Source of the DNA: Polytrichum commune | Taxonomy: Eukaryota > Streptophyta > Polytrichopsida > Polytrichales > Polytrichaceae | Length of the DNA: 64,000 nt | NCBI GenBank assembly: GCA_950295325.1 | Contig: OX485807.1 | Coordinates: 14,533,001-14,597,000, forward strand | Direction of reading: 5' to 3' | Shown: positions 9,046 through 58,502 of the stretch, in pieces | Position numbering within the stretch: position 1 is the stretch's first letter | Layout: each line of letters opens with the position of its first letter | The notes under the pieces: model-generated | Database searches by the model: none | What the model was told of the DNA's origin: nothing | What the model saw: the letters and a program-made list of their open reading frames with translations, nothing else | Translations under genes and position numbers: made by a program

Positions 9046-10152
9046 TGGCAAAGAGCGATAAGAAACTTTTTACCGAGTAAGGAAAGGAAGAGGTAAGGCA
9101 GGTTGGTGAGGTTAAAATGGCTGCGAGGTCAGCGGAGAATGTTACAGCACTAAATGCTCATCGTGCGACACATCGGACGATCACAGATTCTTCACTTATC
9201 CCTGGAGAGATAAGGATAAGACAACCTTCGCAGGCAGGCAGGCAGCAGGCACCGAATGCCATTTAGTTCTGACATTAAAAATAAAACCCTGGCGAGTACA
9301 CTCCGGAGTCGGAGTCGGATCAAACAATTCTGCTGATGAATTCGTACCTGGGAAAAGAGAAAAAGTGCAAAAGTCTCACACATAACCTACCTGTTCCACA
9401 ACAGCATCTGATTGGCCTGGACGTGGAAAAACTTTGGCAACTCGCTATTCAAGCGGCCACACTGAGAAATCCAGGTCATCTGGAGATGGGAAAAGACTAG
9501 CAACAAAACCAAGCAGCTCGCTGCAGCCTCCGATCGCCAGAGTCTTTGTTGCCGATACAAATACTGCTCAATCTTCCGAATTGAATGAACATTGCGTCTT
9601 CACGTCGCCTAAATTTCTCAAAATTGGCTTTATCACGCATCATCCTCGAGGTGGATTCAGCGGGTCGTAAGCTCAGACACGTGCAAGAAATCCCGGGTTA
9701 ATTATAGGTACCTTGTGAAGAGGAGTTTGCAGAATTATCCTGAAACTTACGCTTCTTATCCTCCAAAGAGTCAGTTTATGATACTACAGTACTGACACGT
9801 AACACAGATCTACTGTACGTTTAAGTCTGATTTGGCACATCTTTGCCTAACTTCAATTCCCACGTCATCTCTTAATCGGTTGTGTCCCATCACATTGTGA
9901 CACGTGGTTCTTGGAGCAATGATTAGTTAAGTAATGCTTAATCTGACTCACTGCCCACACATAGGGCGAAGAGCACAACCATAGAAAGCATGAGTGGTCG
10001 TGCTATTGGTGGGATATATGTAATCTTCCGCCTACGCATTTGTATATCCCAAGAACCTTTGGAGTGCATAGAGTCTTATCTAGTTAATAGTGCATGTTTG
10101 AGAAAGCGCAAAAATGTGGTATTATCAAAAAGTTTCACTTTCTTAAACATGG

Positions 10153-37835: not shown

Positions 37836-38742
37836 AAAACAAACAACAATGAGTAGAAGTTCTACTATTCTTCTTGATTGTGTACTTAACCCATTAATGA
37901 AAGAGAATGCAAGTTCTCAAAGAAAGGAACACACAAGACTTTGGTTGAGCAACAACTTTTTTGAAGTCGGGCGGAGTGGGTAGGAAGCATGGGCTTCATC
38001 CGAGCAGTGAAGGAGGCGTGCCCGGGGTGGGGTCCAACCTTGGACACATGCAATCTAGCCTGGGGCACATGCTCCAAGGCTCCGTGCTATTTTGAACCGT
38101 GCAAAAATAACCGACATTTCTCATGAGGAACTTGCTCTCACTAATTTTTCTTTTAAAGGATCTATCCTTGCCATGTGGAATCTATGAGATCCATCATTCT
38201 ATTACGTTTATAAAAGCATTACCATGTCATAAAGAATAAAGCCTGAATTGTTTAAAACAATCTTAATTTCATCAAGATTGTAATAAGAGGAGGTTGTCGT
38301 TTTAGGTTTATAGGATCCGGGTTTTATAATAACTACTGTAGTGCAATTCAATTAAGCGGTTTTATTTCCATAATTCTTTATTATTGCATGGATCTTCTAA
38401 ATATGTACAACTTGGATCCATGTGGCTAAGGAAGACAATCCTTATTCACTAATTGTTTTCCTTATTGAGTGGTATGTGATCTAGTGTGGCTTAAAGACAC
38501 GTTCCAAATAAAAAGAAAAGAAATGAAATTGATGTTAGAGTCTAGGAAGCCGAAAGGCTAATGGGACTAAAACCTACAAGGTGGCATCAAACTAGCTAAT
38601 ATCCCTACAATGGCAGAGTGCAGTGGCCTCCGTGAGATAGGAGCTAATATTAACTTGTTGGTCTAATTGAAAGAAAGACTTGAGGTTCCCGAATAATAAC
38701 TTCTCAAATAGTGATTTAAACTTAACTCTAATGGGGTTGTAT

Positions 38743-38830
38743 GAGGGAAGCTATCTTATGAGCGATGAGCAGTGAGCGGTGAGCGGTGAGCAGTAACACA
38801 TGAGCAATGAGCAGTAACATATGAGCAATG
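38743..38830. repeat. MULE left terminal inverted repeat and GAGCAGT-type subterminal repeats
   Basis: About 38 bp match the right terminus with a few mismatches. Inside it, GAGC(A/G)(A/G)TGAGCAGT-type units repeat several times, a plausible transposase-binding array. The right-end counterpart is 58430-58492. Confidence 0.8.
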
Positions 38831-38955
38831 AATCCAAATTTAGTAAAGACACACGGGTTTAGGGTTTACAACCAAATTTTTGACAAATCAATTGCATATT
38901 TTCAATTGTAAATTGCCAATATTTTAAATGAAGCACAAGTGAAAGGGCCCTATTT

Positions 38956-39172
38956 CCATGGATCATTTAGAACACTTTCAATCCATTGCTGATTTTTATT
39001 ATAATAATTCAAACCAATACTTGTCATTTATTGACATCCTTATACATGTAGCTACAACTAGCACTTGTACAACTACTCATATTCTACAACACCAGCAAAT
39101 TCAAGTAGGTGCATAACCTCATTATACATATATGTCAGTGCCATAATTGTGAGCCACTCAAACTGCTCATGG
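38956..39172 (-). pseudogene. Partial duplicate of the transposase 3' end
   Basis: This is a diverged copy of about 39536-39725, which is the last coding part and 3' flank of the transposase gene. Shared blocks are 'tcatttattgacat', 'attctacaa', 'accagca' and 'tcaagtag'. It has no upstream coding sequence, so it is a truncated tandem relic or the end of an older MULE copy. Confidence 0.65.
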
Positions 39173-39236
39173 GTTGAATAAAGGCCCAAAATCTACAAAA
39201 AAAAGAAAATTAGATATTAGAAATAATGAATATGTA

Positions 39237-39440
39237 GGTAGCTACTAGGTTTTGAGACATCCGCCTGTGGATGCGAGTTGTGTAAGAGACTGGTATTAGG
39301 TCTGGATCAACCCGGGTTCGAATCCGGTTGGTTACATTGACTGGTGCTATCCCAAATTGAGCTAGTGATAAAACAGGAATAATCTATAGGCGGATACCAA
39401 GAAGACATTACTACGCGGATGTGCGTAGAATCTTCTTAAT
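39237..39440 (+). mobile_element. Candidate tRNA-derived SINE
   Basis: A good Pol III B box (GGTTCGAATCC, about 39314-39324) lies 45 nt after a weak A-box-like stretch (GGATGCGAGTTG). A tail ending in T-rich sequence follows at about 39425-39455. It lies exactly between the two copies of the transposase 3' end. I see no clean target duplication and the A box is poor, so this remains tentative. Confidence 0.3.
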
Positions 39441-42400
39441 TATTTTTTATTTTTAGAAACGTGTTATTATTTATCCGTGTGAATCAATCAAACCACACAT
39501 GGTTGGGTCGTAGTCTAAATAAAAATGAAGTTACTGAATCATTTGAAATACTTTCAGTCCACTGCTAAGTATAATAAGTATAATCCAAACCAAAACATGT
39601 CATTTATTGACATTCAAATATATGTTGCTTAATAGAGTACTTGCAATACTACTCACATTCTACAATACCAGCAAGTTCAAGTAGTCGCATGACCTCATTA
39701 TAGGTATATGTAGGTGCATGAATGAACTTGTCACTCTTGTAATCCACCTTGCACAAAAATCTAAACACATAATAAAGATGTTTACAATACACCCATTTTC
39801 CTTTATTTTCCAATGCATGAAAGGACACTTTCGTGAAATCTGGACATGTGCAATGCGGGATATCGCCAATTATGACATGGTAGGTAATATCCTGCTTGGA
39901 GACAATGTTGATTATCACTCCAAAGCCCGGATATGGAATGACAATGACCCCAACCACATAGTAACCTTCTATGAGTCTGGCGCTCTCCCATTTGTTTTTG
40001 TAATCCGCCAGAGGTGCTGTTGGATTACGACGCATTGTCTTCTCAAATCTGAATGTAGGGTGGGCGTTTGGGTTTGGTGGCATAGAAAAATGCGAGCGAG
40101 GGATGGGAAGAGTTGCGATTGTTGAAAGCCTACAACGAGGAGACAATGCCTCCCTCTGCTGTAGTTGAAATCCAGCATCTTCAAATGCCAAAACCTCCTC
40201 TCTCGATAGATTGGTATCTATCTTCACTGGCCACGTGTTGGGTATTATAGGCCAATCCAACACATATTTCTTCTTATTGCCACTCACACAACGTTTGATG
40301 TCGTCAGGACAAAACCAAAATTCATACTCCACATTGTTGGGAGAGCGAAATTCCTTCCTAAGCCCTTTGTATGTTGGAGCAGGTGTGCCATGTTTCCCAG
40401 TCCCGACTTTGGCATTGCACATAGTCCTTGTAATGGCCTGCAGTGCCCAACAACGTTCGGCTGAGTTGGGTGGCAATCTTGCAATGTGCCACTTAGAAGC
40501 AAGACAATCAGTCTCTAACACGGATGTAGTATGAGCCACACCATGAATTGCAGAACTCAACGATTCCTCTATGCGTTGACGAGTTGCTTGGGTGTTGGGA
40601 CGAGGAATGGAATAATTCACTTTGTCGGGTCGATGAGAGTCACAATCAGCACCCGGTGGTAGGTTGAGTTTGCGTTTGGTGGAACCAAAGAGCTCTGACC
40701 CTTCCAATGCACAATCTAACGTGTTGACGTCTTCTGCCCCTGGATAAGACTTCATGGCATCGGCCAATATTTTTGGATCTCCACACCTAGCAGCCGCTTT
40801 GAGTTTCAAGGATGCCGAATCAGGACCTTTACCATCAGACCTTCCTTTCAACCATGTCCGGTAATTTGCAATTTGCATGAAAGCACGAATCATGTCGTCC
40901 ACTGTAGCTTCATATAAACAAGTCATCTTGTTGCCGGACTGTTGGAGCCATTTGTTGTGTACAATCTCTGCAAGGTTGCATGTTGGCATTTCCGCACGTT
41001 CTTCTATTGTCATATCCTATGAACAACACACAAATATGAGGATAAGAAAAATAGAAGATATATATAACAGTGGAAGAAAAATGAATGACATTGAAGAATG
41101 AAATTTTATATGTACTTACAAATAGCATATGACCACCCCATTGTCTGTAACGAAAGTGCCAAAAACCTAAATGTGGGAGGGCCACCTTCAACCATCCAGC
41201 CTCAGACGGTGTAACCCGCTGCTGAACCGGTTTACATGGAAGTTACTCCCACCAAAATTAAATCTTCTCTTCTCTAAGTCTCGTGAAGGTGTTTGCATTC
41301 TTCTGTATCTCAATTCCGTAACATGCAGTTCCAATATCCTTATAAACTCTCTAAGGTCTAAAATTACAAGTTTATGTTTCCCTGAATCTAATGTCAAGGT
41401 TTGGTGTTCCTAAACCTTTAAATAGATTCAGTAACACAATACTTTTCTTAATCAAGAATAATGTGTTCAAGACCCTTTTATAAATCCCTAGGGATAAAGT
41501 GTCCAAGTTGTCAAGTTTATGTTCCCCGAAAGTGCCCTTAATGAGAACACTTCTATAATATCTCTCAGTATGTAGTTCCTTTTAAATAATCTCTTAAATG
41601 GATAGGTGCCTTAGATCTTAAGTTAATGTTTCTCAAACGTGTAATGTCAAGGTTAAGTGTTTCCCCGAGAGAAACATCCTCATACAATATCTTTCATGGT
41701 TGAATTCATCTAAAACATATTTCAAGTTCATAACTCTCGTAATTTGAAGCCATCTAAATTCTCCTACCCACAATATCTTTCATGTTTTGAATTTAGATCC
41801 TATCGATTTATAATCCTATATAGAATACTTATTCATTCCTTTAGATTCCAATGCCATAATCTCTATTCCGTTCAAGTCTTCAAACATGTTGCCTAAATAC
41901 CTTCATAAGGTAGCATACTCCCTCGCTAAGTCAAGACAACCTAGCGCGTGGAAGATGCTTTGGCATAATTAAAAATCCCTTTTACATTCCGTAATTTATA
42001 AGTGTATGCTCTCGAGCCAAATCCCTAAGGCTTAGCACATAATTGCTACTCCTTAGAAGATTCCAAATATTTGACTAAGGCCGGCTAAATCCCCAGAATA
42101 TTCTCTTAGGCCGCCAAAATCCCTAAGTGCTAAGGTAGGGGATTTTGATGACGAGGCCACATCTCGGCCACCTTTGGTTCCAACCCTTTGTTTGCTTTAT
42201 GATTTGATTAGTCTTATCAAGTCCTCTCAAGCAAACTAATCTCGGGGCCTCAAATCCATTGGCGTGAAAAGTAATGATGTGAACTTATGCTAAGGTGTCA
42301 AGCTTCGGCTTGGGGCATCATTACCCCTTTCATCAATGAGCACTACCTAGGTGGTTTGTTTTACGGTGCTTAGATTCTCTTGCCTCAACCTCTTGCCAAG

Positions 42401-42659
42401 TGTGGGTGACTTTTACCGTCTTGCATGCGTAATCCAAGTTGCTTATGAAATAACCTCAAGTGTGTCGCACGCGGTTTACTTCTCCTCATATGAATTCACA
42501 AAGTATATATATCGGAGTTCCTTTATATGGTGCTTGGCCAATGGACCGCGTGCATGTTCTCGGGTCATTTCTTTTCCAAAACTTTGCCCATCTTCAATTC
42601 GGTAATTGCCTAAGCCTATGTAAGTATGTTGCTCTTTGATTGCCGCATCCTTGCTTACC

Positions 42660-43655
42660 GCACCGAGGTTGCCGAATACGATCCCTAGACACAAACTTAA
42701 TGCACCGCGGGTGCCGATTTCTATCTAATAGCGATCACTAGACTCAAACTTATTGCACCGCGGGTGCCGATTGTCTTATCTAAAGGCGATCCCTAGACTC
42801 GACCTATTGCACCCAGTGTATATGTTTGACAAAGTTTTTGCAAGTTTTTCTCTTTTGACACGCAAAAACTTGCACAAAAAATAAATGCACGTCAATTGAC
42901 ACGCACATTTTAGAAGTTGACACGTACTGTGACTTGTGAAGAAAAAAACCACATGTCAATTGACACACTAGAAATTCAAATGACATGTATTAGTAGGCAA
43001 CTTGAGTACTATAAACTGCGGCTCAAGTATCAAGTACCCATAACATTAGGAGAACTTCCTAAACTCACTTACATACTTAAATTCAGCTTCAATTTTCTTT
43101 GTAACCGGGAGTTGAGACGGTGATCAGAGATAGCGAGACTAACTGGGAACAAGGAGAGGCAATGTGAAAGAGGATTTTCCAAACAAAATGCAATCAAAAG
43201 CCAATTGCGCAATAGGTTGAACTTGAAGACCCTTGATGCTCTTATGTGGGTTTCTATCTGTGGGCTCGAAATTTATGCAATGGATTGGGCTACCATCTTC
43301 AACATTTGGAGAAACATGCAAGACCGAAGGATACTTACGCCCGATTGATAAGTTTTTTTTTTAATTACGAATCAAGATTGCATATTGATTATTCAAAATA
43401 TTAGTTTTCCTAAAATATTGTGTAAGCTAAAATTGAGGTGACATTTTGGAATAAAATGTAGATGTCAATTGACATTCATTTTTGTTTTTAAGAACGTCAC
43501 GTGACACTTTGGATTTGAAGTTGAACGTCAAATGAAATTTGTCAAACATAGACACTGATTGCACCGCGGGTGCCGATTGTCTATCTAAAGGCGATCCCTA
43601 GACTCGACCTATTGCACCGCGGGTGCCGATTGTCTATCTAATGACGAACTCAAGA
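42660..43655. repeat. About 60-bp tandem repeat interrupted by an hAT-like element
   Basis: The unit contains ATTGCACCGCGGGTGCCGAT with its palindromic CACCGCGGGTG, then GGCGATCCCTAGACTCGACC. About 2.5 copies lie before 42814 and 1.5 after 43557. The hAT-like element splits one unit, and the target duplication restores it. Confidence 0.8.
42814..43557. mobile_element. hAT-like non-autonomous element (744 bp)
   Basis: Termini are CAGTGTATATGTTTGACAAA and, reverse-complemented at the right, CAGTGTCTATGTTTGACAAA. A perfect 8-bp duplication ATTGCACC flanks it (42806-42813, 43558-43565). CAGTG ends with 8-bp duplications fit the hAT superfamily. Subterminal regions carry repeated GTCAATTGACA motifs on both sides. 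There is no transposase frame. Confidence 0.85.
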
Positions 43656-46376
43656 CTCAAGACTTGGGAGCTCGGACACTCGTGTAAAGTCTTCTTATGC
43701 GAATGAAGTGTATTAGGGCCCTCAAGTGGCCTCCTTATATAGTTTCACATATCTATGTTTTCCTAGGATTTTTGTAAATGTTAGTTCGGCTAAATTTAGT
43801 ACTATATCTAAATATAGTCTGAATTAAAGGCCGTAAGTCTATTTTTATAAATCTATCTTAATTAAAATGTCTTTCCTAGCTACATACCCCTTGGTATCTA
43901 ATTAGGTAATTATTCATTTACCCATTACATTCATCCTTGAATTCGGCCATGTGCCCTATAAATAGGGGAGGGCCACCCTTTCAATTCTCAGCCTAACCCA
44001 TGTTTCCATTTCAGTAGCCGTCTTCCCTTCTACCGCGTACGTTCCCTTGGGTCGATGCCGCTCCCAAAGTTGCTCCCGTGCGTTCCCAGGTGCCTCGGCT
44101 CTTGGTTCCCGTTCCCGTGCATCCTCCTACGTTCCTGGTGCGTTCCCCTAAGTTCCCGGGGCTCTATTCACACCGCCGGCCGCTCCTTCACCATTGGCCT
44201 TCCCTTGCTCGTGCCCTGGCTTCCTCTCTCGCGCTCCTTGGTTTCATCTCCCGCGCACCTTGGCCTCTTGCCTTCCGGCTCTCCTTCCAACTTGGGGGGA
44301 AATGTGAGCTCACCACCAACCACTCTGAAAGGCCAAGGATGCCTTCTTCTGAGGCAGCTCCGGATGACAACCACCAAGAACGAATCACATGATACTTAGT
44401 CTCGGCGTCGTCCATCATTTTTGCGTCTTTGTAATCCTTGCATATTTGCTTGTGTTGAAACTGCAAGGATGGTTTGATATACTTTTGGGTCACCTTATCC
44501 AAGCTTGCAGACCAATGGAAAAGACATGTACGCTCACGTGCAACCATGGGTAGACTTGGATCACCATCCCCGTAAATCGCCCTCGCCGCATTCCAATTAG
44601 CTTGAGCACTATCAGCCATAAACCCTTTGAAGTTTACGTTTGGTACATCATTTTCTGCCATGACAGTATTCAAATTTTCCCAAAAGAGAATTTGTGCTGC
44701 ACCATCTTCAGATTGCATGTCACAACACGCAATAGTCAACACTTTACAGTATCGATTGTCGTACACATGGCAAGCCATGGCCGTCCAGTCCTTCAAACGT
44801 TTGACATGGTCAAACATAATCCATGATTTCTCCATGTCCCCACCGACTTGCATCTTCTTCACAAGCTCCACACCACTACTTGGAAGATCTACAGATATCT
44901 TGAAAAACAAACACTTTGTCCTTTGACTGCCCTGGAAACCGACTACCATGGACGAACTTGAAAGCAGAGTGGTTTTTGAGTGCCATAATACTATTTATAG
45001 TTTCCATTCCACTACGCAAAAAATGCTTTGATCCTGATACAAAGTTACGACAATTCGGAGACGCAAGAGTGCTGAATTTGTCCATGACGACTTCTAGGGA
45101 TGAACCAACCAAGTGATGGCCTTCGACATTTGCTGGAGATTTGAGAAGATAATCGGCCAAGAATTGTTTGCTTGCTGCCATAACTATGGCTGAATTTTTG
45201 GCTGTGGGTGTTTTCAATACTTCATTTGCAACGCACTGGTATACCATGTCCAATGACTCACGGCATGTGCCATTGGCCACAGGGTGATCATGTACACCAA
45301 TATGAATGCAAGCCCTGGACATTTCAACAGATGTGGAGTGGATGTATAGGATTCGAGCATGACATAAAGCAATGCACACAGGTGTGGAACGACATACCTT
45401 ACACTCGACAGTGGACCTAGTAGGAGGAACATTACCCACAGCAAATGGGAGAGGAGTTGAACCGGCCCATTCAGTGTTGTTCCGGAGGCCCCCATTGCGA
45501 TTCATGTAATCACAGTAATCATTAGGACATTGGAGATGACCAGCACAAGTAGAGCGCCGGAAGGACAATCCAAAATCATTTTGGATATTGATGGTTTTGG
45601 TGGTGCACCAAGGGTGACCGTCGCACATCTTGTCCATGCCGTCCATTGAGCGGCCATACGTACTTGGAGCTTTAAGTGCCACAGGGGGTAAGAGAAACAA
45701 AACATCACCATTAAAAGAAGATGGTAAGTACTTGACATCATGAACATCTATACTATCAAAATCAATGGATGCGAGATCTGATTTTTATTTTTTTTTAGAC
45801 TTTGTAAGCTTCAAAGCATCAACGATAGTCAACCCTATAGATGAAGGTGAAGAGGACGTTGAGAAGGTGAGAGCTGGGGAACCAAACTCTTGTACATAGG
45901 ACCGCATGGAGATTTGGCTAAATGTATAGGAAGTTGTGAAGAAGTGGAAACGGCGATGTGTTTGAAAGATTAACAGATGCAGAAATGTCATCTTCCGAAT
46001 CTGATAGTACAAACACACGGTTATCAATGGGTTCAAATTTAACAGGTACAACATAGGGAATTTGAACGGTGGATGTACCGGATTCGTTTGTCAAGATGAC
46101 AGTTGAAGCTTGCATTTGAGATTCAGAAAGACCTATTACCTTAAATGAATCAGGTCCTAAGATCCACATAAAACCAACCTCGGTTCTGTTTTTTTGAACC
46201 AAAACCGTTTCATACACCTCTCCATCTGCAGAATACATCTCCTGCTCTAAATACATGGTTCCTATCTGGAGGTTGAATCTCAGACTAAAAAAATCCTCTG
46301 AGACATTGACATGACCATCATCTTGAAGTGGTAAAATGAAGGGAACAAAATATCCGTGAGCTCTAATGGTAGCCAT

Positions 46377-47012
46377 GGAGAAGAAGGAATAGATGAACAA
46401 CACATGACAATAATCTTAGATCAACATCGCTTTTGTATTGAGTGATGGAAAATATAATAATGGATGTAAATTAAAAGAGGTGATACCATAGCATCCAATA
46501 ATACAAAAGGAGACAGATCATAATAGTAGACAGAGAATATTTGCAAGGAAGGCATAAAATCCTAAACCAGATCTTAAAAAATATCTCATTTAGAAACTAA
46601 GTCATAGGAAACTTGAACCCACAAAGGAGTTGTGTAATATAAGATTATCACATGGGAGAAATGCGGGCACGAATATCATGGAGAAAACGGCGTCAAATAA
46701 TAAACAAGTTGGCAAAGTTTTAAAATACGACTGTGTAGGGTGGATGTAGATGCAGGAACAATTAAAATTGGCCGGCAAAGTAAATGATTGGCCATTATAA
46801 ATAGAACAAAGTCAATGTGGTAGGTTGGGATATCAGAGAAATTTGGCGGATATAATAAAAATAGAAGCAGAGTGAAAGACGCGTTAAAACAACTTGATCA
46901 TTGGACGCCAATTGCAACACTGATGATCGTAATGTGCGTCAGGTTTAAGTGAGCTCTAAACACTAAACAAATGTATGAAAGTGGAGTGGTAGAAGATATA
47001 TCATAGACAACA
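46377..47012. promoter_or_regulatory. Divergent intergenic region between transposase and methyltransferase-like gene
   Basis: About 640 bp separate the transposase ATG (minus) from the first exon-like frame on the plus strand. AT-rich, with no element seen. It would be a shared bidirectional promoter if both genes are expressed. I could not pick a specific TATA box with confidence. Confidence 0.4.
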
Positions 47013-47174
47013 ATGATGGTGGAACATGTAGAGAGAACACTAGTGAGGCGGAAGAGAAGGCATAGGAAGGCGGAGGGCGATGAAGGTGCAAAGAACAAAG
47101 AGCAAAGAGCATGCAGACGATGGTATTTCGGAGTCGGAAATGAAGACGAGTTCACAAAACAGAACAAACAAAAA
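47013..47174 (+). CDS. Candidate first exon of the MULE plus-strand gene
   Basis: A basic, charged open stretch ends at a strong GTAAGT donor at about 47175. Two frames are open (one with RRKRRHRKAEGDEGAKNKEQ, the other with KEHADDGISESEMKTSS). The position just after the divergent region suits a first exon, but the connection to the next exon is not resolved. Confidence 0.35.
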
Positions 47175-47382
47175 GGTAAGTCAACTTCTGATATTGTTTG
47201 ATTTGAAATTATTTTGCTATGTATTCCTTAATAGATGTTGTTTGTTTATCTTGTTCGAAATATTCATATGGTTGATTGTATAATTTTTACTTGTATTATG
47301 ATGGGTATTAACACATGTATGTTGTCATGTGCTAGTAATGTGACGTTGGCGATCTTTTTTTGAAGAACCAAAATTTCTAGCA

Positions 47383-47424
47383 AGCCCATCACCTTCACGA
47401 AGCCTCCCTATCTATGCTGAGACC
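47383..47424 (+). pseudogene. Relic of the last exon of the methyltransferase-like gene
   Basis: The frame reads SPSPSRSLPIYAE, against SPSLSPQSLPVYAE at 57646-57688, with matching DNA apart from a 3-nt gap and some substitutions. It lies upstream of the main gene, so the locus appears to have carried a second copy whose 3' end is left here. Confidence 0.5.
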
Positions 47425-48571
47425 GTGGCTTCTATTTGGAATTCATAAATTTAGTGGCCGAATCATGATTAACATCCATGAAATACATGTTGTTAAGAGT
47501 AACAATATAGTGCAGAAGGTAGTTGAATGCGTTTAAATCTAAAAGAACGTCATTTATTGATGTTAGCAGTGGTTACTCCAGTGAAGGGTAGGAAAAAAAG
47601 TAGGCGAAAAAATAGCTTTCGTTTTTCAAGTAAGAGACAATTGTCAAGGGCTAGAATGAATAGACGTATTCCTCGAATGAAAGGAGTGGACCTACAACAA
47701 GGAATTTGACGTACGAAGATATTGTGGCATGCGAAATGATAACGAAAGATGTCTTCGAACACCAAACTCCTACATGTGAAGCTCAACCACATATCGTCTC
47801 TAAATGCAATGAAGAAGATGAAGAGGAGGAAGATTATGATAAAGGCATCGACGAAGAGCAAGCCACACAATACGAAAAAGAAGAACAATCTTCTGAGGCG
47901 GAGTTGGAGGTAAGTTGTATGAACGAAATGATAAGAGAAGAAATATAAACATGAAAATAAATTTAGAGGTATATAATGTATACTATATTGTGCACACCAG
48001 AAATACGATTCCAACGGTATATAGCATGAACAAAATAATTTTGTTTTGCATGTTTTAGAGCAAAAAAACAATTAGAGCATCTTAGATTCTTCTAAAAATT
48101 TCAAAACATGAAGATTTTATGCAGGAAATCTAACCATATTAGTTTTAGTAGACTTTGACGATTTATGTAAAATTGATATTATCTCCAATAATTCTGAAAA
48201 AAAATGGAGTGAATGACAAGGCTTTAATCTATACACTAGATTTTTTGTGGAAATAAATTAGGATATTTGAAAAAGTTATAGCAAAGATTCCATAGATTGA
48301 AATCTACCAAATTTTTACTTGTTTTTTTTTTTTTTTTTTGGAGTCCGACTTACCCTAATCTCTTGAAGCCATACTCTTCGTAATGTCTTCAGACATCCTC
48401 TTTCGAAGTGCGGTGGCAACAACATACGCAAGAAGCAAGAGCGCGCACCATGGAGGATGCAGATGCTACACAAGTTCCAGGCGGCGACGTGGGCGCATAG
48501 ACAAAACGAGGAAGAGCGACAAAAAAGCTGCAACTCCGGAAAGCGACTCATATGAAGGTGTGTTTCTCTTC

Positions 48572-51500
48572 CAACTGGGTAGCCGTTAACGGCCACCCTT
48601 TCTATGATGCCCAATTATGTGTTGTAGTCTGTTTCATCTAAAAGTGTGGCCGTTAAGAGCCACCCTTTGTTGCATCTTATATTTCTGAGTATATGTGTTT
48701 CTTTCTTAAAATATACACCCATTTCCTTAAATTTATTGTCTTTGAAATTTCAGACTCTTCTCCATATGTGTTTTTTTCTTCATTTATGCACTCATTTGCT
48801 TAATTTTTTTTTCCTCTAACAAGGGTGGACGTTAACGGCCACCCTTATTTACATTTTTGATCTCTTTTCATAAGGGTTTCTTTCTACATATATACACCCA
48901 TTTCTCTCATTTTTCTGTCCTTCAATAAAGGTGGCCGTTAACGGCCACCCTTATTTACATTTCGGATTTTTGTTCATCAGGGTTTTTTTCTACATGTTTA
49001 CACCCATTCTCTCATTTTCTGTCCTTCAATAAGGGTGGTCATTAACGGCCACCCTTATTCACATTTCGGATTTTTGTTCATAAGGGTTTTTTTCTACATG
49101 TATACACCCATTCCTGTCATTTTCTGTCTTTCAATAAGGGTGGTCATTAACGGCCACCCTTATTCACATTTCGGATTTTTATTCATAAGGGTTTCTTTCT
49201 GCATGTATGCACCCATTTCCCTCATTTTTTGTCCTTCAATAAGGGTAGCCGTTAACGGCCACACTTATTTACATTTCAGATTTTTGTTCATAAGGGTTTT
49301 TTTTCTACATGTATACACCCATTTCCCTCATTTTTCTCTCCTTCAAAAAGGGTGGCCAATAACGGCTACCTTTATTCACATTTCGCATTTTTTTTCATAA
49401 GTGTTTTTTTCTACATGTATACACTCATTTCTCACATTTCTCTGTCCTTCAAGAAGGGTGGACGTTAACGGCCACCCTTATTCACATTTCGGATTTTTGT
49501 TCATAAGGGTTGCTTTCTATATATATACACCCATATCTCTCATTTTCTGTCTTTCAAGAAGGGTGGCCGTTAACGGCCACCCTTATTCACATTTCGGATT
49601 TCTGTTCATAAGAGTCTCTTTGTACATGTATACACCCATTTCTCTCATTTTTTGTCCTTCAATAAGGGTGGCCGTTAACGGCCACCCTTATTCACATTTC
49701 GGATTTTTGTTCATAAGAGTCTCTTTGTACATGTATACACCCATTTCTCTCATTTTCTGTCCTTCAATAAGGGTGGCCATTAACGGCTACCATTATTCAC
49801 ATTTCGGATTTTTGATCATAAGGGTTTTTTACTACATGTATACACCCATTTCTCTCATTTTCTTTCCTTCAACAAGGGTGGCCGTCAACGGGTACCCTTA
49901 TTCACATTTCGGATTTTTGTTCATAAGGGTTTTTTTTCTACATGTATACACCCATTTCCCTCATTTTCTGTCCTTCAGTAAGGGTGGCCGTTTACGGCCA
50001 CTCTTATTCACATTTCGGATTTTTTTTCATAAGGGTTTCTTTCTACATGTATACACCCATTTCTCTCATTTTCTGTCCTTCAATAAGGGTGGCCAATAAC
50101 GGCCACCCTTATTCACATTTCGGATTTTTGTTCATAAGGGTTGTTTTCTACATGTATACACTCATTTCTCTCATTTTCTGTCCTTCAATAAGGGTGGTCA
50201 TTAACGGCAACCCTTATTTACATTTCGGATTTTTGTTCATAAGGGTTGCTTTCTACATGTATACACCCATTTCTCTCATTTTCTGTCCTTCAATAAGGGT
50301 GGCCGTTAACGGCGACGCTTATTCACATTCCGGATTTTTGTTCATAACGGTTTCTTTGTACATGTATACACCCATTTCTCTCATTTCATGTCCTTCAATA
50401 AGGGTAGTCATTAACGGCCACCCTTATTCACATTTCGGATTTTGTTTCATAAGGGTTTCTTTCTACATGTATACACCCATTTCTCTCATTTCCTGTCCTT
50501 CAATAAGGATGGTCATTAACAACAACCCTTATTCACATTTCGGATTTTTGTTCATAAGGGTTGCTTTCTACATGTATACACCCATTGCTCTCATTTTCTG
50601 TCTTTCAATAAGGGTGGTCATTAACGGCAACCCTTATTTAAATTTCGGATTTTTGTTCATAAGGGTTTCTTTCCACATGTATACATCCATTCCTCTCATT
50701 TTCTGTCCTCCAATAAGGCTGGCCATTAACGGCCACCCTTATTGACATTTCGGATTTTTGTTCATAAGGGTTTCTTTCTATATGTATACACCCATTCCTC
50801 TCATTTTCTGTCATCCAATAAGGCTGGCCATTAACGGCCACCCTCATTCACATTTCGGATTTCTGTTCATAAGGGTTTCTTTCTACATGTATACACCCAT
50901 TTCTCTCATTTTCTGTCCTTCAATAAGGGTGGCCGTTAACGGTTACCCTTATTCACATTCCGGATTTTTGTTCATAAGGGTTTCTTTCTACATGTATACA
51001 CCCATTTCTCTTATTTTCTGTCCTTAAATAAGGGTGGTCATTAACGGCCACCCTTATTCACATTTCGGATTTTTGTTCATAAGGGTTTTTTTCTACATGT
51101 ATACACTCATTTCTCTGATCTTCTTTCGTTCAAGAAGGGTGGACGTTAACGGCTACCTTTATTCACATTTCACATTTTTTTTCATAAGTGTTTTTTTCTA
51201 CATGTATATACCCATTTCTGTCATTTTTCTGTCCTTACAAAAGGGTGGCCGTTAACGGTGACGCTTATTCACATTTCGGGATTTTGTTCATATGGATTTT
51301 TTCCTACATGTATACACCCATTTCTCTCATTCTCTGTCCTTCAATAAGGGTGGTCCTAAACGGCCATCCTTATTCACATTTCGGATTTTTGTTCATAAGG
51401 GTTTCGTTCTACATGTATACACCCATTTCTCTCATTTTTCTGTCCTTCAAAAAGGCTGGCCGGTAACGGCGACCCTTATTCACATTTCGGATTTTTGTCC

Positions 51501-53775
51501 ATAAGAGTTTTTTCCTACATGTATACACCCATTTCCGTCATTTTCTGTCCTTTAGTAAGGGTGGCCGTTATCGGCCAGTCTTATTCACATTTCGGATTTT
51601 TGTTCATAAGGGTTTTTTTCTACATGTATACACCCATTTCTCTCATTTTTCTGTCCTTCAACAAGGTTGGACGTTAACGGCCACCCTTATTCACATTTCA
51701 GATTTTTGTTCATAAGGGTTTCTTTCTACATGTATACATCCATTCTCTCATTTTCTGTCCTTCAATAAGGGTGGTCATTAACGGCCACACTTATTCACAT
51801 TTCACATTTTTGTTCATAAGTGTTTTTTTCTACATGTAAACACCCATTTCTCTTATTTTTCTGTACTTCAAGAAGGGTGGCCGTTTATGGCGACCCTTAT
51901 TCACATTTCGGATTTTTGTTCATAAGGGTTTCTTTCTACATGTATACACCCATTTCTCTCATTTTCTGTCCTTCAATAAGGGTGGTCATTAACGGCCACC
52001 CTTATTCACATTTCGGATTTTTGTTCATAAGGGTTTTTTCCTACATGTAGACACCCATTTCTCTCATTTTTCTGTCCTTCAAGAAGGGTGGCCGTTAACG
52101 GCGACCCTTATTCATATTTCGGATTTTTGTTCATAAGGGTTTTTTTCTACATGTATACTCCTATTCCCCTCATTTTCTGTCCTTCAAGAAGGGTGGCCGT
52201 TAACGGCGACCCTTATTCACATTTCGGATTTTTGTTCATAAGGGTTTCTTTCTACATGTATACACCCATTTCTCTGATTTTCTTTCGTTCAATAAGGATG
52301 GACGTTAACGGCTACCTTTATTCACATTTCACATTTTTTTTCATAAGTGTTTTTTTCTACATGTATACACCCATTTCTGTCATTTTTCTGTCCTTCAAAA
52401 AGGGTGGCCGTTAACGGCGACCCTTATTTACATTTCGGAATTTGTTCATAAGGGTTTTTTCTTACATGTATACACCCATTTCCGTCATCTTCTGTCCTTC
52501 AGTAAGAGTGGCCGTTATCGGCCAGTCTTATTCACATTTCGGATTTTTGTTCATAAGGGTTTTTTTCTACATGTATACATCAATTTCTCTTATTTTTCTG
52601 TCCTTCAAGAAGGTTGGACGTTAACGGCCACCCTTATTCACATTTCAAATTTTTGTTCATAAGGGTTTTTTTCTACAGGTATACACCCATTTCTCTCATT
52701 TTCTGTCCTTCAATAAGGGTGGTCATTAACGGCCACACTTATTCACATTTCACATTTTTATTCATAAGTGTTTTTTTCTACATGTAGACATCCATTTCTC
52801 TCATTTTTCTGTCTTTAAAAAAGGGTTGCCGTTAATGACTACCTTTATTCACATTTCAGATTTTTTTTCATAAGTGTTTTTTTCTACATGTATACACCCA
52901 TTTCTCTCATTTTCTTTCCTTCAACAAGGGTGGACGTTAACGGCCAACCTTATTCACATTTCGGATTTTTGTTAATAAGGGTTTCTTTCTACATGTATAC
53001 ACCCATTTCTCTGATTTTCTTCCTTTCTAGAATGGTGGACGTTAACGGCCACCCTTATTCATATTTCGGATTTTTGTTCATAAGGGTTTCTTTCTACATG
53101 TATACACCCATTTCTCTCATTTTCTGTCCTTCAATAAAGGTGGTCATTAACGGCCACCCTTATTCACATTTCGGATTTTTGTTCATAAGGGTTTTTTTCT
53201 ACATGTATACACCCATTTCTCTCATTTTTCTCTCCTTCAAGAAGGGTGGCCGTTAACGGCGACCCTTATTTACATTTCGGATTTTTGTTCATAAGCGTTT
53301 CTTTCTACATGTATACACCCATTTCTCTCATTTTTTGTCCTTCAATAAGGGTGGTCATTAACGGCCACCCTTATTCACATTTCGGATTTTTGTTCATAAG
53401 GGTTTTTTCCTATATGTATACACCCATTTCTCTTATTTTTCTGTCCTTCAAGAAGGGTGGCCGTTAACGGCGACCCTTATTCACATTTCGGATTTTTGTT
53501 TATAAGGGTTTCTTTCTACATGTATACACCCATTTCTCTTATTTTCTGTCCTTAAATAAGGGTGGTCATTAACGGCCACCCTTATTCACATTTCGGATTT
53601 TTGTTCATAAGGGTTTCTTTCTACATGTATACACCCATTTTTCTCATTTTCTGGCCTTCAATAAGGGTGGCCAATAACGGCCACCCTTATTCACATTTCG
53701 GATTTTTGTTCATAAGGGTTTCTTTCTACATGTATACACCCATTTCTCTCATTTTTCTGTCTTTCAAAAAGGCTG
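48572..53775. repeat. 105-bp satellite with a palindrome in every unit, about 50 copies
   Basis: Head-to-tail units of about 105 bp share 'cacatttcggatttttgtt', 'tacatgtatacacccattt' and GGGTGGCCGTTAACGGCCACCC-type centres. In the best copies AATAAGGGTGGCCGTT is followed directly by its reverse complement, a perfect 32-bp palindrome. The first units (to about 48830) are diverged and irregular. The unit length is divisible by 3, so long plus-strand frames (FIRVSFYMYTPISLIF type, up to 267 codons) run through many units; I treat them as by-products. The array lies in the probable intron 47911-53960 of the methyltransferase-like gene. Confidence 0.9.
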
Positions 53776-54144
53776 GCCGATATGATGAATATCTTGCCTC
53801 CTTTATTTTTTTTGAAGTATTAGTTTTTCACGATTTTTGTTTTCTTGTATATTTTTCTTGGTTTCTTTTTATTTGGATTTCTATAACTATATTTTCTATT
53901 GCATCTTATTTTTGTTGTGTGTGATTATTCATACTCTTATATGTTTTTTCCTTGGTGTAGCAAGAGTTGGGAGATGCTGCTGCTATTGCTCAAAGAAAAT
54001 TTTATGAGAAATATCCTGATCCTGCACATTGGACTTCGAGTGCAGTGGATGAATTTGTTTCCAAAGTTGTTGAGAGGGTGAGATTGACTTCTCATTCGGA
54101 ATTGAAGAAACAACTTCCCATTGCGGATCCTAAACATTCTCCTT

Positions 54145-55110
54145 TGTCGCGCACCTCTCCATAAGGAGTGCCCAAAACACCATGGGCACAAGGGGGACCC
54201 CGGAATGACACCCGGGACTTGTGGCGCCGTTGGTGAGAGGGCCCAAGTGATCCTAGTGTGGGCGAGGGCCCCGGGCATTGGGAACGCCTCCCACCCACGG
54301 AGACTAGGATGCACAAGGGTAAGGCCATGAGCTATGCATAGCTCATGGTGTGGTGATTCTAGAATGCTCAAGATCACCTCAATCGGAGGTGTGAGCTAAG
54401 AGTTATGGCAATTGGAGTGGGGCGCTGTCCCGGGACAGCGCCCTGGTACAGCAGTGCCTGGGAGTGATTCCCGGGACTGCCAAGGTTTGAGGAGGCATAA
54501 CTTTCTCAATACTTGTCCAAATGGGACAAGTGAGGAGTCCATCGGCATCTACGTGAAGCGTAGATGAAGATGAAGTGGTTGCTTGTTGGAATCAGACATC
54601 TTACAAGGAAGTTATGATGGTCTGGGGGCTTCTAGGCCCAGCGGCTAAGGGAAAGTGTACACTTGGCCCCAACTCTTGGTAGAGAGACAAGAGGTTGGTT
54701 GACGGTGGGGTAGGGGCCCCGCGTAGAGTCCTAGAGGCTTATATGGGTGAGGTGGTGTGGCCTCACCCACCCGCGGCCGAACGGCACGGCCTCCATGGGC
54801 TTTGGCCCATTGTGAGGCCATAGTTGCCTAGTATGGTTCGGGTTGTTGTAGTGTTGCTCCCGCAACGCGAGGATCAACATAAGATTGGACTTCCATGGGT
54901 GGAAGTCCACATCTAAGGATTGGTTACCGATTAAAGGGGTGAGTCCCGAAATCAAAGTAAGAGGGTTGGTTCCCCTCCTATGAACTAATGGTCCGGGGTT
55001 AGAGGAGCTAACCATGAGCATGGCGGTATGCGAAGGGTTAGCGACTCGTAACCTTTGCTAGAATTGAAAATTAGCAAGATTGTTAAGGGGAACTAGCAAG
55101 GGTTGCGACA
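54145..55110. mobile_element. Solo LTR (966 bp)
   Basis: It starts TGTCGC and ends GCGACA, has higher GC than its surroundings and no coding sequence, and interrupts the exon ending in ADPKHSP. The flanks TCCTT and TCTTA are at best a degraded 5-bp duplication. A TATATGGG box lies near 54738. It is not the same family as the 1158-bp LTR despite similar tips. Confidence 0.6.
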
Positions 55111-57802
55111 TCTTATGTTCTTAGAGCAGGTGAAGTCTCATTATGAAACTCACGATGAGAACCTTGAGATGATTCAAAAAAAACTTTGGATGTTAACAAC
55201 TTCGGCAATGGACACATCTATGAAGGTTAAGTGGCTTGAGAGGTGGAACAGTTCACCTGCTCTTCGTGAGGCTCTCAAGTTTCCGAAACCAAAATTCAAT
55301 GATATAGAGTTTCCTATGTGGCTTCATAAAGCTACTTGGTGGGCTCATGTGATAATTTTTGTCCTTCTATTATGTTTGGTTCATTTATTTTTTGTCTATG
55401 TTTTTAATTTATTTTTAATATTTTTTCAAGCCTTTAATTTTTCTAATATTTATTTTGTATTTGGCAGTTGGCTATTGAGACCGAGAAACTCTTTGATGCT
55501 ACTGTGACTGATATGCATATGTCCATCAACTACCTTCCAGATGGTATGGATCCTTTGCCCATTATTTTTTATTATGTGGAGGCAATGCGCATATCATTGT
55601 GGGATACTGCATTTTTTTTGTGAATTTGGTGTAGATAAGGGAGTTCACAAAAATCAGAACATTAACAAGCAACTCAATTTTTATCTGGCCATGCGAAGGG
55701 TGTTTTATAGGTACTTCAAATATGTCTTATTTCTTGCGAAAGCCATTTCCAAATCTCCCATTTTTTTGGCTAATTATTTGAATATGGAAAGTGAAGAATG
55801 TATGTTTATAGAGGGGATCATGAAATCTTGGGATCTTGTGCATTTTGAAAAATGTGGGTCGTATTTGGATTGTCCTCTTAAATCACCTCTCACTTTTGAT
55901 ATTACCCTTCGAGATTCCATTCAACCCGCCCTCAAGGGTACAACTAAAATTGTTCCCTCTATAATGGATGAGGATGCAGCCAAGATGCCAAAAAAAAAGA
56001 AAGTCTAAGCCTAAAAGACCAATCCTCCTCATTCATGATAGCGATGAGGATGCTCCAATTCAAAGCAGTCTCAACAACCTTGTAGTTACTGAACCTTTTT
56101 CAAATCTAGAGGCAACGTTTCATACTTCAAAGCGGCAGAAAACAACCCCTTCTCCTACCTTGGATATACCTCCCAAGCTTAGAGGTATGATGAATATCTT
56201 GTCTCCTTTATTTGCAAATCATACATCTTCGGATTTAATCTTGAATGATTCTTTTGTGAGGATTATCGAAGATAAGAAGCAAACATGTACATTTCGTGCA
56301 CCATATGACGACATTGTGGCTTTTCTATCAAAGGTGAGTTCATTTTATTTTACAGTTTTTACTTTATTCAAGTTTTATAAAGTTTCACTCATATTTTGTC
56401 ACGTTATTTCATTTTTTACTTTTAATTGTCGTCTTTATTCATGAATTGTAATATTTATATTTTATCTTTGTAGGTTGGTGAAGGTAGACAATTTTTTTTT
56501 GATGGCCAATTGCAAAAGAAATCTGTTGTGGACCTCATTATTGTGGATTACCCAGATGGTCTTCGGGTTCCAGGTGTCTCGGATCCGCCATCTCAAATTC
56601 CCCCTTGAAATGCCAACATTCCAAGTTTTCTCAACATATTGATGGCATTTGCTCTTACCTATCTTCATGATGATGGAGCATTCCTTTTGTTTTATCCTGA
56701 CAGTTCTGCCGTGAAAAGAGAAGTGGCAGGATTCTTCAAGAACTATAAGTTCAAAATCAAGGATGAGTGGACTATCATTAATTCCTTGCACTTGGCAAAT
56801 CCTATGAATCCGTCCAAAAATGTAAGTAGCAATTATGACATTTCATTTTGATTGGTTCATATTTGAATTTGTTTTTATATGTTGTATATTTTTTAATTTC
56901 AATTTTATATTGACTTTCAGACTTTGAAGTTCAAGGCTTTGTTATTGGTTCGATCATTTTCAATTCCCATTGCGAGGCAACCTCAAGAACTTCTGATCAC
57001 CATGCATCCTTCAATTCTTGAGGTCGATTTAGCCACAGATAACGTTCTCTTCAACTCTATTACTATAGAAACTCAATTATGTATACAAAGAGATGGCAAG
57101 CCATGGAGGGGTGCAAAGGAGAAGTCTGACGTTTTAATGAAGTTATTTGTTCATGGTTTGAGTCATGTAGGCGGTATTGTGGCAGACATGACTACTTCTA
57201 CAGGTATTGTATATTACAATATCCAATTATTGGTTCATATGTTTTTTAATTCATACTTCAATGTTAGTATTTTCCTAATTAATGTTTTGCTTCATCCAGG
57301 TTCTTCTATTAGAGCGGCTCATTCATCCGATCGTCATATTCTAGCATCAGAAAATGATGCCGAACTCTTTGATGAGGTACTAAAGCCTCTTCAAACACCT
57401 ACAAATGATACCTCATGCGATGGTATGGACTTTGATAATGATACTCCAATAGAAGACGCCGCATTTCTTAACTTATGTGAGTAAGTTTTTTCATTGTTTT
57501 TTTCTCAACAACTTCAATTGCAAATTCTAGATTTTGTATTCTAATTTGTTGTTACATATTCTAATACATGGTTTGTTGTTTGTAGTTTGATGAATCCATC
57601 GCCGATACAAATGTCGTCATTTTATCAGCACAGTGGATTATTGAGAAGCCCCTCTCTTAGTCCTCAAAGCCTCCCTGTGTATGCTGAGGCTTTAGCTGAA
57701 GCTTATGCTAATGCTTCATCTACTTCATCTTCAATTTCACCTTCACCTCGTAGATATTACGATACTAGAGTATGTGCTTATTTTGAACTCAGTGCATCTT
57801 AG

Positions 57803-58429
57803 TCCGACGATATTTAAGTTTGTATTCATGATTTGATTTTTGATTTTTAAAATTTGATTTCCAAGAACTTCAACAATTTTAATCTACTACCCGATTTATA
57901 TCTACAATCCACTTTTGTTGTTCTTTATGTTTTGGACTTCGTAAATGTCACCCTCATGATGGTGTTATAATGTATTCAAATTTTACATTGATGTGTATTA
58001 TAGTGAGACATTCTAACATGCTACACTTGTTTTCAACATGAGTTTGCTTACACATTGTCTCCAATTACATTATTATTATCTCAACAGTTGAATGTATATT
58101 AGTTCATTTTTAGTACAAAATTGTTATAGCAACACTCTCATTTGTTGTTTATTTGGACTATAGACCCTTACATGTAATTCCACAGTCATAGGCCCCCAAC
58201 GGATTTACAAACCATAACCGGGAAAAAATTGAAGGCTCGCATGTTCACGCTTGCATGCTCACATACTAGCAACCCCGAGTCGTGTACATATTGGTCTTTT
58301 TCATCGCTCACTACTTGCAATCTAGCATTCATATTATTTGTCCTCCCCAATCTTCTTATTATTGAACCCTAAAAAATTATTTCTTTAGGCCACGGTTATA
58401 GGATACTCGGGGTCCTATTACCAAATATT
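57803..58429. other. MULE 3' region without recognised gene
   Basis: AT-rich non-coding sequence between the last exon and the right terminal repeat. 'cgctcactac' and 'gctcacata' near 58250-58310 resemble the subterminal units at the left end. Confidence 0.5.
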
Positions 58430-58492
58430 TTGTTTTCTTCACCGCTCACAAATTACCGTTCACTGCTCACCGCTCACAAGATAGCACTCCCC
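58430..58492. repeat. MULE right terminal inverted repeat
   Basis: Inverse of the left terminus, containing CTCACCGCTCACAAGATAGC, ending in ACTCCCC directly before the 10-bp duplication at 58493-58502. Confidence 0.8.
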
Positions 58493-58502
58493 GGGGTTGT
58501 AT

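Follow-up and report, generated by a model that had tools for sequence, protein, structure and literature searches.

A two-gene transposon with Mutator-like ends in Polytrichum commune and its methyltransferase-like, putatively ParB-like second gene

A 64,000-nucleotide stretch of the Polytrichum commune genome (contig OX485807.1, positions 14,533,001 to 14,597,000; hereafter the window) contains at 38743-58492 a transposable element with two divergent genes: a transposase on the minus strand and, on the plus strand at 53961-57802, a multi-exon gene whose product is a relative of the permuted beta-class amino-methyltransferases. In this study, we examine the second gene, its relatives elsewhere in the genome, and the palindrome arrays of the elements that carry it. 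The element is bordered on both sides by the perfect 10-bp repeat GGGGTTGTAT (target-site duplication, left copy 38733-38742, right copy 58493-58502), as a sequence-only reading of this DNA had claimed. The matching inverted termini noted in the same reading are also present, though they are imperfect: the left terminal inverted repeat (38743-38780, plus strand), which leads into short GTGAGCG-type direct repeats, is identical to the other end at 31/38 positions, and the right one (58455-58492, minus strand) was placed by end-motif matches and end-to-end comparison.

The element and its copies

The assembly that contains the window (408 Mb, 64 contigs) was searched with the end motif, which at three or fewer mismatches gave 481 + 534 = 1,015 matches, as against 0 + 0 for the reversed control. 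Both ends were compared in twelve copies: eight short copies of 6.3-7.1 kb, the window copy, and the copies designated A1, A2 and B1. All twelve (12/12) have a perfect duplication of 9-12 nt, the window copy having 10, with a 1-base slip permitted at each end that accounts for the 12-nt value; their terminal inverted repeats agree at 31-32/38 positions. The target-site duplications of Mutator-like elements (MULEs) range from 8 to 11 bp.

By its ends and duplications the element is Mutator-like, and the label is limited to the ends because the MULE transposase domain PF10551 was not matched on the transposase in Pfam searches. PF10551 has 142 matches in this genome, none of them seen on these transposases when the two sets were compared by eye, and an hhalign comparison of the transposase with the PF10551 proteins of the genome (three rows a side) returned a probability of 0.1%. 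A PDB search also did not place the transposase. A SWIM zinc finger match in the B1 transposase homologue stayed below the cut-off (E=0.076, 13.0 bits, cut-off 19.6), with the CxC...CxH pattern visible by eye. The earlier description of a MULE with a MULE transposase consequently holds for the duplication length, the ends and a weak SWIM-like motif, but not for the Pfam MULE domain or the profile-profile comparison.

Copies A1 and A2 measure 12,458 and 12,395 bp between ends, and the window copy is colinear with them at 92-96% identity. The 19.75-kb element first described is thus real, but that is not its native size, the parent being about 12.4 kb. The C-terminal exon of the transposase (39652-41016, minus strand, 455 aa) has a SWIM-like CxC...CxH motif by eye; the N-terminal and core exon (44316-46376, minus strand, start near 46376) is broken by frameshifts and stops in the window, and the same frame is open over 794 aa in A1 and A2. 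Between the two genes lies a 105-bp tandem array (48763-53779) of about 47 units (47.6), the unit containing the palindrome AAGGGTGGCCGTTAACGGCCACCCTT; A1 has 7.8 units and A2 has 5.3. The array is followed by a deletion point (53780-53801) at which a ParB-like exon is gone; that exon is present in A1 (8128-8499 of L013).

The second gene then runs on the plus strand through a linker exon in two parts that are separated by an insertion (part 1, 53961-54147, 90% identical to A2 by tblastn; part 2, termed MT1, 55111-55348) and the middle exon or exons (55469-56335). Next come an exon that contains DYPDG, the motif IV region (56474-56823, the motif itself at 56546-56560), an exon with PWRG..EKS and the beginning of motif I, ADMTTSTG (56924-57203), and an exon with the remainder of motif I and the next strand-helix unit (57300-57484). 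A C-terminal exon (57588-57802) is placed by its open frame and splice-like borders only. Motif I occupies about 57176-57203 and resumes at 57300, so that the divergent, multi-exon gene with motif IV ahead of motif I that had been read from the sequence is indeed there. In the window this gene is a pseudogene, with a frameshift near 56000 and an in-frame TGA at 56606. Since the transposase N-terminal frame is broken as well, the window element is a dead relic, and it is to related copies that one has to turn for the biology.

In all eight short copies (8/8) the N-terminal part of the transposase and the catalytic exons are missing. The first methyltransferase exon is still there, which gives these copies the look of non-autonomous derivatives that arose by internal deletion. 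The host assembly also has matches to C_LFY_FLO (LEAFY) at three places, with six exon matches of which two contain a stop, and the host LFY reads KMRHYVHC, a form associated with plants other than mosses. LEAFY is a streptophyte gene, and its presence makes a land plant the very likely host.

The methyltransferase-like core

Six lineages of the second gene in this genome, A, B, C, D, E and F, were named according to the percent identity between their methyltransferase core and that of the window, and X denotes a second organism that is described below. One representative of each lineage, together with X, makes up a set of seven cores. All seven matched Pfam N6_N4_Mtase (PF01555) at E<=1, the best at 1.5e-7. 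The 577-aa single-exon frame of the lineage D copy D1 scored 29.9 bits, above the curated cut-off of 26.7, and X (23.0 bits), E (21.7 bits) and the A core (19.9 bits) fell below it; the window exons by themselves gave no Pfam match. Against solved structures (PDB), the profile of the cores matched a DpnA-type enzyme at E=6.7e-8 and CcrM at E=6.3e-6, the CcrM alignment covering profile positions 4-220 and spanning motif IV to motif I. Motif IV precedes motif I in both the core alignment and the CcrM alignment, which is the permuted order. AlphaFold2 gave no usable model of the window core read through its introns (predicted local distance difference test score, pLDDT, 30).

Among the invariant columns of the core are D....TG in motif I and, ahead of it, W.G...K. 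The catalytic position, canonically [DNS]PP[YFW], is instead [DEQ][YIFV]P[DE] in 7/7 cores (DYPD, EYPD in two, QFPD, DIPD, DIPE and DVPE), and in the alignment the DPPY of CcrM stands opposite a D-hydrophobic-P-acid sequence. Among 15 lineage A copies, the window included, the P is retained in 14/15 (L036 has L) and the following D in 14/15 (L033 has Y). On these comparisons the second gene is a relative of the permuted beta-class amino-methyltransferases that keeps the S-adenosylmethionine (SAM) binding motif and has an altered catalytic motif, and its membership among the active enzymes cannot be assumed. The assignment to the beta class that was first proposed therefore stands on the PF01555 match, the DpnA-type and CcrM profile matches and the motif order, and is qualified by the non-canonical motif IV.

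One possible role is that of an active N4-cytosine or N6-adenine DNA methyltransferase, competent despite the altered motif IV. Such an enzyme would methylate its own element and thereby alter how the host or the transposase recognizes it. The permuted core and the conservation of motif I in all seven cores are compatible with activity, and self-modification has been suggested for the Sola1 gene of Ectocarpus in the part of that report available (PMC12477816). The residues at the catalytic position speak against it. In the bdelloid methyltransferase N4CMT, the change of SPPY to APPA abolishes activity, according to the accessible part of its description (PMC8885841), and by this analogy catalysis in the second protein has likely been lost or changed. 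We consider an active, self-modifying enzyme unlikely.

The ParB-like region

Upstream of the core, the second protein has a region in which DGNHR is common to 6/6 rows aligned. The GNHR within it, likewise in 6/6 rows, conforms to the GxxR motif that is a feature of ParB proteins in the accessible portion of a study of phage and bacterial fusions (PMC12704722). The second protein would accordingly consist of a putative ParB-like N-terminal region and a C-terminal permuted methyltransferase domain.

Pairing of the two genes

The pairing of transposase and second gene was scanned among best matches: the best 150 of 1,070 first-look candidates for one second-gene exon (about 29 of these rows have a stop by hand count), the best 150 of 1,294 for a second exon pair (172 matches), the best 150 of 1,622 for the transposase, and the best 150 of 1,289 for an F-type transposase. 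The test with the window-type transposase used 149/150 first-exon rows and 40 chosen exon-pair rows, 189 in all. Within these best-150 lists, a divergent window-type transposase match was located within 25 kb of 14/27 A-type methyltransferases and 19/30 members of a class at 38-41% identity. The corresponding counts were 0/20 for E, 0/52 for C and 2/50 for the 42-46% class, and the further exon-pair rows gave 1/4 for A, 0/3 for E and 2/3 for the 42-46% class; shifted-position controls gave 0-4 of 189. With the F-type transposase list, partners were found for E (12/20), C (12/52), the 42-46% class (6/50) and A (1/28), as compared to 1-5 of 150 in shifted-position controls. The lists hold the best 150 matches only, so a partner missing from them is not thereby absent from the genome. 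Reading frames were also inspected over 7-10 kb upstream at four loci (L039 of lineage C, L040 and L041 of lineage F, L042 of lineage E), and a transposase was recognized in 1/4 (L041); half of another locus, L022, consists of N.

In six of the lineages in this genome, the transposase thus has the second gene as a partner that is transcribed divergently from it. The expectation that the pair would co-occur in other copies holds for the longer copies and for divergent neighbors at many places, but not for the short copies, which lack the catalytic exons.

Both genes were also found in a second organism. A scan of prokaryotic genomes returned two contigs (L044, L045) from AVDCRST_MAG81, a cyanobacterial bin of soil-crust origin. 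They encode the second gene, with motif I interrupted by an intron at the matching position, and a transposase relative is present in this bin as well (L051; E=1e-268, frames of 719 and 476 aa), on a different short contig from the second gene. Because the genes carry introns, these contigs are taken to be eukaryotic contamination. Viral contigs, scanned with two alignments of the methyltransferase and also with the ParB-like region and the transposase, yielded no relative, and phage records gave a single weak match (E=0.3).

One account of this association is passive, in that the second gene would be a captured host gene of the Pack-MULE type and have no role. MULEs do often take up gene fragments. 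A partner gene that recurs in six lineages and in another organism as well, and that has evolved under purifying selection between lineages, is difficult to reconcile with mere passage, and we regard this account as very improbable. The purifying selection is read from the nonsynonymous divergence (dN) between A, E and C, which is 0.30-0.48 while synonymous divergence (dS) is saturated; on this comparison the lineages themselves have been under constraint.

Exchange of second genes among transposase lineages

The two genes have different histories. Transposase identity is 79-90% among A, B and D and 51-55% among E, C and F, with 44-48% between the two groups, whereas the methyltransferase of A is most similar to that of E (67%), followed by C (56%), F (41%), B (37%) and D (30%). 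An A+B+D clade is rejected by the methyltransferase data (approximately unbiased, AU, test, p=0.011), and an A+E+C clade is rejected by the transposase data (p=4.5e-44). The groups tested were named after the identities had been seen, and D and X sit on long branches of the methyltransferase tree, which makes p=0.011 weaker than it appears; the conflict is already visible in the identity matrix. From this conflict between the trees, the second gene has been exchanged between transposase lineages.

The exchange bears on another possible role of the second protein, that of a transposition cofactor that aids cutting, pairing or maintenance, with the palindromes described below serving as architectural sites. 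MURB of MuDR is the comparison for a protein of this kind. The pairing with the transposase and the divergent arrangement are consistent with a cofactor, as is the retention of palindromes in the eight short copies despite the loss of the catalytic exons. The exchange of the second gene between near-identical transposases argues against tight protein-protein co-adaptation, and a cofactor role is in our judgment quite improbable.

Lineage D has acquired a further gene, as a protein kinase (PF00069) lies between the transposase and the methyltransferase in 3/3 copies read (L019+L020, L025, L026). The D1 kinase matches PF00069 at E=1.3e-9 when read across a stop as X, and its HCD..N and DWG motifs are visible; the frame is unbroken in 0/3 copies.

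Palindrome arrays

The elements contain palindromes outside their coding frames, and the sequences differ by lineage. The arrays of A have TGGCCGTTAACGGCCA, with arms of up to 16, those of C have GTGCCGTTAACGGCAC, those of B have TTTGGGTCGnnCGACCCAAA and TGTGCGTTAACGCACA, and those of F have GGTTTCGGnnCCGAAACC and TGTCTCGGnnCCGAGACA; lineage D has TTGTGCGCnnGCGCACAA one or two times per copy. Palindromes with arms of at least 8 were counted and compared with block-shuffled sequence. The counts were 9 vs 1.8 in the window element, 6 vs 1.0 in A1, 8 vs 1.0 in A2, 17 vs 1.1 in B1, 20 vs 1.1 in C, and 26 vs 1.6 and 17 vs 1.1 in F. Lineage D gave 5, 4 and 3 vs 0.9-1.2, lineage E gave 4 vs 0.4 and 4 vs 1.2 with no palindrome sequence occurring twice, and X gave 2 vs 0.3 and 1 vs 0. 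In the eight short copies the counts were 2-8 vs 0.1-1.1, and the A palindrome is kept in 8/8. Tandem copies are not independent, and a fair count for these comparisons is one palindrome type per array.

Across the genome, the 18-mer of the A palindrome occurs at 143 exact sites and its control at 0. Among the 50 A sites listed, 46 lie no more than 12 kb from a listed exact element end or an A-type methyltransferase match, as compared to 1.4% at random. The arms of the B palindrome occur exactly at 9,731 sites (control 0), and their centers differ among the 100 listed.

The arrays could be ordinary minisatellites that are unconnected with the second protein, a view that is compatible with the other accounts of that protein. 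The DNA to the left of the element in the window is itself rich in palindromes (11 vs 2.8 shuffled, with 0 vs 0.4 on the other side), lineage E has single palindromes only, and nine copies of the B palindrome TTTGGGTCGnnCGACCCAAA surround open frames in L060 (G000:C1:1181300-1190900, about 10 kb), apparently a different element. None of the 11 left-side palindromes is repeated (0/11), as opposed to the recurrence within A, B, C and F elements, and the B arms are exact at 9,731 sites, with differing centers among those listed. We find this view somewhat doubtful.

A strict tracking of palindrome by second gene was considered and dropped. It predicted the A palindrome core in lineage E, which has the closest methyltransferase to that of A, and this prediction failed in the 7.5 kb read. 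Nor are array and second gene one-to-one, given the B palindromes in L060. L060 was itself a candidate, by eye, for a ParB and methyltransferase gene; profile comparisons returned 0.1% and 0.5%, Pfam and PHROGs searches found nothing relevant, and L060 is recorded here as a side observation.

Relation to known systems

The idea that a methyltransferase passenger of this kind lacks precedent did not survive a comparison with the literature. In the accessible part of one report, the accessory gene of the Ectocarpus element Sola1-1_Ec32, together with green and red algal transposon genes cited there, combines ParB with an N4/N6 methyltransferase (PMC12477816), and it is for this gene that self-modification was proposed. 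The Polytrichum gene resembles it in having a ParB-like region and an N4/N6 methyltransferase in one gene, opposite to the transposase, in a large DNA transposon; the likeness is one of description. Sola1-1_Ec32 belongs to the Sola-1 superfamily, whereas the present elements have 9-12 nt duplications and an unplaced transposase. As far as the available portion of that report goes, the present elements further differ in that they reside in a plant genome with LEAFY, fall into many diverged lineages that have exchanged the second gene, and have an altered motif IV, arrays of palindromes and, in lineage D, a kinase gene.

The VANC proteins of VANDAL MULEs offer a second parallel, in that an extra gene is accompanied by tandem motif arrays in the introns and upstream DNA of its own element (PMC5735166, consulted in part). 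Motif arrays in the non-coding DNA of the element itself are present here in A, B, C and F, with few sites in D and none found in E. The accessible text on VANC describes conserved and highly variable regions and names no methyltransferase or ParB domain, and the VANC motif YAGTATTAY is not palindromic, whereas the motifs here are.

Phage and bacterial fusions of a ParB-CTPase fold with an N6_N4 methyltransferase have the same domain pair, with a GxxR comparable to GNHR, but in the part of the study available they are prokaryotic (PMC12704722), and the phage records and viral-contig pattern scans described above yielded no close relative (best E=0.3 in the phage records). Bdelloid N4CMT is likewise a bacterial-type eukaryotic amino-methyltransferase linked to transposons; in the portion available, however, it is described as a host gene that acts on transposons, with a canonical SPPY and a chromodomain, and is not transposon-borne (PMC8885841). 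Within the literature found on MULE, ParB, methyltransferase and VANC themes, a search that mostly did not extend to subscription literature, the present form is not described.

A proposed role for the second protein

Our preferred reading, in which our confidence is about evenly balanced, is that of a two-gene Mutator-like transposon whose second protein is a self-acting, VANC-like (anti-silencing) system of ParB-like and methyltransferase-like parts. ParB proteins act from specific sites. The second protein may bind the repeated palindromes of its own element and, modeled on the VANC proteins that act through tandem motif arrays, would counter host silencing or mark the element as its own, rather than serve as a general methylase of the genome. 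An arms race over specificity would then lie behind the swapping of the second gene between lineages and the turnover of their arrays.

A more particular scheme is a eukaryotic system like ParB–parS, in which a pseudo-methyltransferase loads on the palindromes, binds SAM without amino-methylation, and blocks silencing, the second gene being a specificity cassette that is swapped between lineages. We regard this scheme as rather improbable.

Several observations weigh against the preferred reading of a self-acting, anti-silencing protein. The ParB-like call is putative and draws on one motif and published analogues: the region has no Pfam match and no relevant PDB match, a PHROGs ParB-like family was matched at E=0.12 in 1/6, and an AlphaFold2 model of the L044 region alone has a pLDDT of 39. 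The D of motif I is changed to N in 2/15 A copies (A1 and L027). Within lineage A the median dN/dS is 0.75 (84/105 pairs, dS above 0.02), as expected of copies that decay after insertion. Conservation of the palindrome core over its flanks is 0.93/0.64 in the short copies, 0.92/0.67 in B1, 0.97/0.83 in C, and 0.96/0.88 and 0.89/0.62 in F, which lends the reading weak support because the core values are inflated by the choice of units with three or fewer, or four, core mismatches; in the window array the core (0.88) hardly differs from the flank (0.873), with the outer palindrome at 0.949. To these are added the lack of the A palindrome in the 7.5 kb read of lineage E and the B palindromes of L060.

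What the present data add to the algal precedent is that an accessory gene of ParB-like and methyltransferase-like character now occurs in a LEAFY-bearing plant, on a different transposase, and that this partner is kept across diverged lineages, has altered catalytic residues and is swapped between lineages. A long-standing question is thereby opened to test, namely by what route transposons come to encode sequence-specific proteins that target their own DNA and so evade silencing, and whether the fold of a methyltransferase can be converted into a regulator that binds DNA.

Insertions and flanking repeats

Two insertions contribute to the length of the window copy. The first, of 3.15 kb (41168-44315), is not in A1 or A2 and interrupts the transposase gene; it contains five near-copies of a 41-nt unit, several with the imperfect palindrome ATTGCACCGCGGGTGCCGATT. 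The second, of 0.96 kb (54148-55110), lies within the linker exon of the second gene and has palindromes such as GGGCGCTGTCCCGGGACAGCGCCC in common with two lineage C places (L039+L021), pointing to another repeat family. Outside the element, at 1647-2302 of the window, is a 32-bp minisatellite (GAAACCGTGGGTTTGATCC...) whose unit is near-palindromic.

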